The notes under the pieces: model-generated | Seen by the model: only the letters and a program-made list of their open reading frames with translations | What the model was told of the DNA's origin: nothing | Database searches by the model: none | Made by a program: the position numbers and the translations under genes | Shown here: piece by piece, positions 10,911-12,600 of the stretch | Layout of the letters: each line of letters starts with the position of its first letter | Position numbering within the stretch: the stretch's first letter is position 1 | DNA from: Psychromonas sp. Urea-02u-13 | GTDB taxonomy: Bacteria; Pseudomonadota; Gammaproteobacteria; Enterobacterales; Psychromonadaceae | NCBI RefSeq assembly: GCF_002835995.1 | Contig: NZ_PJBZ01000041.1 | Coordinates: forward strand, 62,001-126,000 | DNA length: 64,000 bases | Reading direction: 5' to 3'

Positions 10911-11903
10911 ATGACAATTAAAATCGGTATCAACGGCTTTGGTCGTATCGGACGTTTCGTATTTCGTGCGGCTTGTGAACGTGCAGACGTAGAAGTTGTT
11001 GCAATCAATGACTTAATCGACGTTGAATACATGGCTTACATGCTTAAATATGACTCAACACATGGCCGTTTCAACGGTACTGTTGAAGTTAAAGACGGTA
11101 ACCTAGTTGTAAACGGTACTACTGTACGTGTTACTGCTGAACGTAACCCTGCTGACCTTAAATGGGATGAAGCTGGCGTTGACGTAGTTGCTGAAGCAAC
11201 TGGTCTTTTCCTTACTGACGAAACAGCTCGTAAGCACATCACTGCTGGCGCTAAAAAAGTTGTTTTAACTGGTCCTTCTGGTGACGTTCCAATGTTCGTT
11301 AACGGCGTAAACTTTAACGAATACGCTGGTCAAGATATCGTTTCTAACGCTTCTTGTACTACTAACTGTCTAGCACCTATTGCTAAAGTTCTTAACGACA
11401 AGTGGGGCATTGAATCTGGTCTTATGACTACTGTTCATGCAACTACTGCAACTCAAAAAACTGTTGACGGTCCTTCTGCTAAAGATTGGCGTGGTGGTCG
11501 TGGTGCTTCTCAAAACATCATCCCATCTTCAACTGGTGCTGCTAAAGCAGTAGGTAAAGTAATTCCTGCTCTTAACGGTCTTCTAACTGGTATGGCTTTC
11601 CGCGTACCAACTGCTAACGTTTCTGTTGTTGACTTAACTGTTAACCTTAAAACTGCTGCTACATACGAAGAAATTTGTGTTGAAATGAAACGTGCTTCTG
11701 AAAATGAATACGCTGGCGTTTTAGGTTACACAGACGAAGCTGTTGTATCTCAAGACTTTATCGGTGAAGTTCAAACTTCAGTATTCGATTCTGCAGCTGG
11801 CCTTGCGCTAACTGACAAATTCGTTAAAGTTGTATCTTGGTACGACAACGAAATCGGTTACTCAAACAAAGTTCTTGACCTAGTTACTCTTATTTCTAAA
11901 TAA
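10911..11903 (+). CDS. gapA: Glyceraldehyde-3-phosphate dehydrogenase, type I
   Basis: NAD-dependent glycolytic enzyme converting glyceraldehyde 3-phosphate to 1,3-bisphosphoglycerate; 330 residues, the normal length. The Rossmann motif [10 protein letters not shown] is at residues 6-15, the catalytic Cys is in [12 protein letters not shown], and '[13 protein letters not shown]' is the conserved C-terminal block. Codon use is strongly biased (many GGT, CGT, AAC), unlike its neighbours, as expected for a highly expressed gene. A terminator follows 25 bases after the stop. The last 24 or so codons plus that terminator are repeated, in decaying form, four more times downstream. Confidence 0.98.
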
Positions 11904-11928
11904 GTTTAATTAAGACATCTTTGTTAAA

Positions 11929-11956
11929 GCCTATACTTCGGTATAGGCTTTTTTTT
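11929..11956 (+). terminator. gapA: gapA terminator (copy 0)
   Basis: An 8-bp perfect stem GCCTATAC/GTATAGGC with a TTCG tetraloop, followed by eight Ts. A TTCG loop gives an exceptionally stable hairpin, so this should be a very efficient terminator. Confidence 0.95.
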
Positions 11957-12093
11957 GTCTAAATTTTAAGATAACAAATTCTTCCAATTGAATTCCGTAT
12001 CTTAGTACGATAACGAAATCGGTTACTCAAACAAAGTTCTTGACCTAGTTTCTCTTATTTCTAAATAAGTTTAATTAAGACATCTTTGTTAAA

Positions 12094-12119
12094 GCCCGCA
12101 TTTATGCGGGTTTTTTTTT
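12094..12119 (+). terminator. Terminator of repeat copy 1
   Basis: Stem CCCGCA/TGCGGG with a ttta loop, followed by nine Ts. It is a different hairpin sequence from the gapA terminator but sits at the equivalent place in the repeat. Confidence 0.85.
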
Positions 12120-12253
12120 GTCTAAAATTTGGCTACATTTCGCAAAAACGAAATCTAGCGTTGTAACACAAGCAAACAAAGTTCTTGACCTAGTTTCTCT
12201 TATTTCACCTATTCATAAATAAACAAGAGTTTAATTAAGACACCTTTGTTAAA

Positions 12254-12279
12254 GCCCGCATTTATGCGGGCTTTTTTTT
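12254..12279 (+). terminator. Terminator of repeat copy 2
   Basis: Stem GCCCGCA/TGCGGGC with a ttta loop, followed by eight Ts; nearly the same hairpin as in copy 1. Confidence 0.85.
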
Positions 12280-12440
12280 GTCTAAATTTTAAGATAACAA
12301 ATTCTTCCAATTGAATTCCGTATCTTAGTACGACAACGAAATCTAGCATTGTGATACTAGCAAACAAAGTTCTTGACCTAGTTACTCTTATTTCACCTAT
12401 TCATAAATAAACAAGAGTTTAATTAAGACACCTTTGTTAA

Positions 12441-12465
12441 AGCCTGCATTTATGCGGGCTTTTTT
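12441..12465 (+). terminator. Terminator of repeat copy 3
   Basis: Stem AGCCTGCA/TGCGGGCT with one G-T wobble and a ttta loop, followed by a run of Ts. It is slightly degraded relative to copies 1 and 2. Confidence 0.8.
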
Positions 12466-12600
12466 GTGCCTGAAATTCGTCAAGCAACGAAACCTAGCGT
12501 TGTAACACAGGCAAACAAAGTACTTAACCTAGTTTTTCTTATTTCTAAATAAGTAGTAATTAAGTAAGCTTTTTGTGTCTGAAGTTCGGGATAAAAAATT

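Follow-up and report, generated by a model that had tools for sequence, protein, structure and literature searches.

Tandem copies of gene tails and terminators behind gapA, fusA and eno in Psychromonas, possibly retained as serial terminators

The stretch of DNA analysed here (64,000 nucleotides of Psychromonas sp. Urea-02u-13, referred to hereafter as the window) carries an intact gapA gene (10911..11903, + strand) encoding a glyceraldehyde-3-phosphate dehydrogenase of 330 residues, for which 87-97% identical orthologues exist in 21 other Psychromonas genomes. Hairpin scans place the gene's own intrinsic terminator at 11926..11956 (hairpin 11926-11951, then a T run), and beyond it lie four further copies of the gapA 3' end on the same strand, giving five copies in total with copy-to-copy spacings of 165, 145, 188 and 151 bp. 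Identity between copies is far above chance (97% in a 100-nt block, 99% in a 75-nt block), and the copy alignment, with its spacings of 145-188 bp, confirms the sequence-only reading of this DNA, which had described the gapA 3' end and terminator as being followed by four more copies.

The copies fall into two types. Copy 1 (11997..12068) comprises the last 24 codons including the stop, lacks the insertion found further downstream (type 1), and leads into its own 3' UTR and terminator (12069..12119, hairpin 12091-12114), the head of this hairpin being unlike that of gapA yet still paired. Copy 2 (12147..12227) is of type 2, in that an insertion with TGTAACAC lies inside the former NEI-GYS-NKV codons and a second insertion precedes the stop; its 3' UTR and terminator follow at 12228..12279 (hairpin 12251-12274). 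Copy 3 (12320..12415), identified by repeat search and tail comparison, is likewise type 2, with 3' UTR and terminator at 12416..12467 (hairpin 12440-12461). Copy 4 (12486..12580) is a decayed type-2 tail from which the hairpin has gone; the mid-tail insertion is common to copies 2-4, the one before the stop to copies 2 and 3. By eye, 12590..12652 may hold what is left of a fifth unit, almost erased; it is absent from the tail-copy scan.

Across the 100 aligned nucleotides (97% identity), copy 1 differs from gapA by three changes: one silent (GAC to GAT), one that replaces a residue (ACT to TCT, Thr to Ser), and one nonsense, TGG to TAG at 12003-12005, which also appears in the orthologue search. 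The earlier description of copy 1 as in frame with mostly silent changes therefore holds in part; the GAC to GAT and Thr to Ser changes are present, but the frame is closed by the TAG codon.

The gene's own terminator and those of copies 1-3 retain intact hairpins with T runs, so that four terminators stand in series, as had been proposed from at least three copies with hairpins of their own. Comparison of the gapA terminator with those of the first copies reveals nearly identical flanks around a hairpin head that differs but still pairs; a simple terminator scan of the window picks up only the first three of the four. An assembly artefact is unlikely, because the copies differ from one another and because G006 and G019, each assembled into one or two contigs, also have arrays. 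Short-read drafts do call for caution, as they break or collapse at gene-tail arrays, and array counts from drafts are minima because the gapA contigs of five other genomes (G007, G014, G015, G016 and G023) break off within the array or shortly ahead of it.

The same locus in relatives was found to carry extra gapA tails, as the sequence-only reading had suggested checking. An orthologue search of 24 Psychromonas genomes returned a single gapA orthologue (87-100% identical) in 22 and a second in none, the remaining full-length matches being paralogues of about 36-41% identity; no orthologue was found by this search in G001 and G013. By the tail-copy scan, 13 of the 22 (six contigs end early) carry additional tails on the same contig as gapA, namely the window's genome (G000) and G006, G007, G008, G009, G010, G012, G014, G018, G019, G020, G021 and G023. 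Two genomes come on top of these: G015, whose gapA contig stops 36 nt past the stop codon and which carries two tail copies close to the beginning of a second contig (C33), and G003, with a decayed gapA-tail remnant below the threshold of the scan. The gapA contig of G016 ends 65 nt after the stop codon, as does the named locus L057 (P. hadalis); the scan found no extra tails in G002, G004, G005, G011, G017 (680 nt downstream) or G022. Wherever copies are detected, they begin within the last tens of codons, and unit length is ~145-255 bp across genomes. The array spacer of G021 contains a palindromic repeat. In G006, the 3' end of a mutarotase-like gene that lies upstream of gapA is duplicated as well, over 397 bp (L193:2156-2952), and gapA of this genome is thus flanked on both sides by tail duplications.

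Beyond the genus such copies are sparse. Among other-family loci in the tail-copy scan, 2 of 14 have a copy (G058, G034), and in the Motilimonas-like group at least one extra gapA tail is present in G034, G058 and G060 and none in G061 (3/4). Named genomes supplied 80 best gapA loci for the scan, 79 of them reaching 300 nt or more past the stop, and tail copies are nearly absent there, with two matches: a tail copy in L056 (identical with G018, Psychromonas sp. 14N.309.X.WAT.B.A12), and a weak match in L080 (Pseudocolwellia) that lies 1.8 kb away and lacks the coding tail. Terminator matches also led to a repeat in another family of the order (L047:4001-4996, genome G052), in which an 87-bp unit containing a terminator-like hairpin occurs 11.4 times.

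Many gapA copies have an insertion in place of the codons between NEI and NKV, often with TAACAC. A pattern built on one subtype of this type-2 tail (at most one mismatch) matches 5 of 295 genomes of the order, exclusively at the gapA arrays of G009, G019, G020, G058 and G060, the same pattern reversed matching ~20 genomes once or twice each; it represents a single subtype and does not detect the arrays of G000, of G034 or of most other genomes that have one. Being confined in this way to gapA arrays, in two families, the subtype is either old or transferred. The fusA gene of G060 (L325) clusters with Psychromonas, apart from G034, G058 and G061, which makes transfer between Psychromonas and the Motilimonas-like group plausible; this fusA is probably a transferred gene, the other reading being a contaminating contig. 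The placement of G034 and G058 in the gapA tree is not firm.

Arrays of this kind are not confined to gapA. Scanning 800 kb of G006 revealed several genes with duplicated tails, among them fusA, which has three copies that bear a terminator, and fusA tail repeats (1-4 extra copies) are present in 12 of the 20 Psychromonas genomes in which they could be determined; this count takes the G016 copy as UTR and terminator region only, and leaves out G003 (412 nt downstream) and G015 (38 nt after the stop). At another setting G002 gave one borderline fusA tail match that is missing in the main fusA scan. All eight other-family genomes lack fusA tail copies, the Vibrio-like G043 having 41-nt UTR repeats of another kind. 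A fusA C-terminal query of the 295 genomes of the order gave at least three matches in 8 of 23 Psychromonas and in 10 of 272 others, where the third match may be an EF-G paralogue. Tail arrays at eno occur in 7 of 10 chosen genomes (the window's genome included), and groEL arrays in 2 of 10, the latter consisting of UTR and terminator without coding tail; these samples (10 tails each, from 22 Psychromonas genomes searched) are biased, since all 10 genomes have a gapA array. In the window's genome itself, eno is followed by two extra tails, whereas fusA and groEL have none. Arrays at gapA and fusA co-occur (11 genomes with both, 2 with gapA only, 0 with fusA only, 6 with neither; G003, G015 and G016 left out; Fisher p 0.001, uncorrected for relatedness).

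Two side observations belong to these loci. A 55-nt element lies within the fusA tail copies of several genomes (L227:1775-1829, L309, L313, L314, L315, L327), its pattern also matching further contigs of G001, G009, G014 and G015, and groEL of G022 (G022:C1:2272848-2274349) is in two overlapping pieces, possibly through a frameshift or sequencing error.

In the gapA, fusA and eno arrays alike, the unit runs from the last tens of codons through the 3' UTR and the intrinsic terminator into a short spacer. Because fusA and eno tails are repeated in many relatives as gapA tails are, we regard the array in the window as a recurring genome habit rather than a one-off. Our leading explanation, to which we give a little less than an even chance as a whole, is that the arrays arise by recurrent tandem duplication at the 3' ends of very highly expressed genes, are homogenised by exchange and are kept as working fail-safe terminators. 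Its parts differ in strength: duplication is well supported, and selection for termination has only a slight edge over a neutral account. Such a series would begin with a small tandem duplication across the stop codon, which would be tolerated as the gene stays intact; once two copies are present, unequal exchange or gene conversion could multiply, delete and homogenise units, with the distal end escaping homogenisation and decaying. Distal copies are indeed decayed, and by eye the copies in a genome are closer to their own gene's tail and UTR than to copies in other genomes. Spacers have gained simple repeats and dispersed elements. We are less sure of the last step, in which a polymerase that runs past the first hairpin would meet a second, third and fourth, and the array would persist at very highly expressed genes.

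We asked what it is in the unit that is kept. Coding is not, because 33 of 55 full-unit copies (gapA, fusA, eno) have frame-shifting gaps in the coding tail. The hairpin and T run, by comparison, are retained in most non-distal copies of the three arrays, gapA copy 1 of G012 being a non-distal copy with a broken hairpin. Alignment of copy hairpins to the gene's own terminator (60 of 79 copies, those in which 80% or more of the stem could be aligned; the 19 dropped are mostly decayed or diverged, a bias that favours retention of terminators) reveals 107 arm changes, with 21 doubly compensated pairs, 35 single pairing-neutral changes and 29 broken pairs. Random placement of changes would break 77.8 pairs (sd 4.7, minimum 65 in 200 placements), although some of the compensation may date from changes in the gene's own terminator prior to exchange, which this comparison cannot tell apart. 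Against retention, 62 of 600 pairs are broken or gapped in the whole-unit alignment. Fail-safe termination, one of the roles the sequence-only reading had offered, appears from the sequences to be the best functional reading of the array.

A neutral origin is nevertheless a serious possibility, which we place somewhat below an even chance. Here the genomes would generate many tandem duplications of 50-400 bp, of which those spanning a stop codon survive with the gene intact, carrying terminators along that are still paired because the units are young and homogenised. Consistent with this, distal copies decay, and the hairpin arms change as fast as the rest of the unit (divergence per site 0.096 in the arms, 0.071 in the coding tail and 0.097 in the UTR; the arms are not slower). 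Short tandem arrays are also abundant in G006, at 45 per Mb over 800 kb and including the mutarotase-like gene tail, against 12.5-20 in four others scanned over 400 kb each (G011 20, G019 20, G032 15, G022 12.5); the scanned stretches include the gapA region, and in G006 also fusA, and G032 belongs to another family. In G006, 13 of 625 ORFs have a tail copy, several of these being modest in codon bias and some without a terminator.

Against neutrality, fewer hairpin pairs are broken than random change would lead one to expect (subject to the reservations on dropped copies and exchange given above), and tail copies are rare outside G006, yet gapA, fusA and eno are affected in genome after genome. 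The corresponding counts are 2/305 ORFs in G019, 1/314 in G011, 0/340 in G022, 0/348 in G032 and 2/58 in the window, the two ORFs being gapA and a transposase-like ORF both in G019 and in the window. A stricter, coding-tail-only setting gives 8/548 in G006 and 1/54 in the window, with none outside ORFs in the others, and misses gapA of G019. When gapA, fusA and eno (with array) and groEL (without) of G019 are set against 1 of 304 other ORFs, p is 3e-6, fusA having been chosen because G006 had it. The transposase-like ORF of the window (46608-47138, of IS200/RAYT type by eye) adjoins REP-like tandem arrays at 46466-47609 (an 80-bp unit twice and a 103-bp unit four times), and elsewhere in the window, at 58254-58368, there is a perfect 13-bp tandem repeat, TATTATTTCAGAT, in 8.8 copies.

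As to why these genes are the targets, serial terminators could be under selection where expression is very strong, or else transcription itself could provoke the duplications. With fusA as reference, gapA has the highest codon bias of 289 ORFs in G019 and of 548 in G006; it is also first in the array-free G011, and the genes at ranks 3 and 4 in G006 have no array. No clear link is seen by eye between an array and the direction of the downstream gene. A more specific proposal, which we hold tentatively and think possible rather than probable, is that Psychromonas builds and keeps serial terminators from the tails of its most transcribed genes, under selection and with concerted evolution, perhaps to offset termination weakened by cold through poor melting of the RNA-DNA hybrid, or else that transcription provokes the duplications; the cold-related weakness is a guess. 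If this is so, the 3' ends of the most transcribed genes would be a repeated target of tandem duplication, and terminator number could evolve by gene-tail copying, raising the questions of whether duplications are provoked where strong transcription ends and whether serial terminators are a need of cells that live in the cold.

The other readings survive less well. A tandem family of 3'-derived small RNAs (an AU-rich stretch and a terminator with a U tail, along the lines of rttR at E. coli tyrT) is improbable. Most units do end in a terminator behind an AU-rich UTR, one type-2 insertion is common to two families, and a repeat-derived non-coding RNA is annotated in the E. coli case; but by eye the 3' UTR varies freely between species, so that a conserved seed is not obvious, and no Rfam family reaches gathering score in 16 loci. 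The 24 Rfam matches in 10500-13000 of the window (E up to 1) are all under gathering scores, many of them on terminators, and promoter-like sites in 10000-14000 are fewer rather than in excess (3, against 12.1, sd 3.2, in shuffles).

That the array is the scar of amplification and collapse of the whole gapA gene, or of a formerly working paralogue to which copy 1 belonged, had been suggested from the sequence alone and now seems very unlikely. The copies do start within the coding region; these starts are confined to the last tens of codons, however, and homology of copy 1 begins only ~69 nt before the stop in the tail-copy scan, so that no longer paralogue is present there. The nonsense codon and the frame-shifting gaps speak against preserved coding capacity, intact tandem gap genes are lacking among the 22 Psychromonas genomes with a gapA orthologue, none of which has a second one, and fusA and eno show a like pattern. 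Scarring by elements that integrate into the gapA 3' end and restore it can be set aside as hardly credible since fusA and eno carry similar arrays: restoration of a 3' end is typical of some integrative elements and the type-2 insertion is common to two families, but the gapA units measure only ~145-255 bp and the downstream ORFs examined by eye include no integrase-like product. A plasmid search (query including part of gapA) gave 21 records, the best ten covering at most 44% of the query and the annotated ones being gap genes; a phage search gave 18 Vibrio phages, the best ten of which all share one 38-nt stretch.

No report of such arrays behind protein genes was found in titles and the beginnings of abstracts of open-licence literature, and a term search of the P. 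ingrahamii genome paper (PMC2405808) returned no 'tandem', and 'repeat' and 'duplicat' twice each in unrelated senses. Among known systems, the closest match is the tyrT/tyrV locus of E. coli (rttR, tpr), where tandem units likewise overlap a gene 3' end. In NC_000913 these are three copies of a 178-bp unit (spacing 178 and 178), and the repeat copy at 1261-1463 of the extracted locus (L359) overlaps 19 nt of tyrV (1445-1529, minus strand), with the rttR RNA annotated. The host there is a tRNA operon, whereas in Psychromonas it is gapA, fusA and eno, and the Psychromonas units, unlike those of tyrT/tyrV, consist of a coding tail and mostly a terminator each, at three protein genes and in many genomes. 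Tandem fail-safe terminators of highly expressed operons such as rrnB T1T2 are usually two different hairpins; they too place several terminators in series behind strong transcription, but in Psychromonas a single unit that includes part of the gene is present in as many as six copies, whose evolution seems to be concerted. A further comparison is with short tandem duplications maintained by unequal exchange, which the Psychromonas arrays resemble in unit size, in similarity within a genome and in their decayed end; they differ in that they recur at the same genes across the genus.
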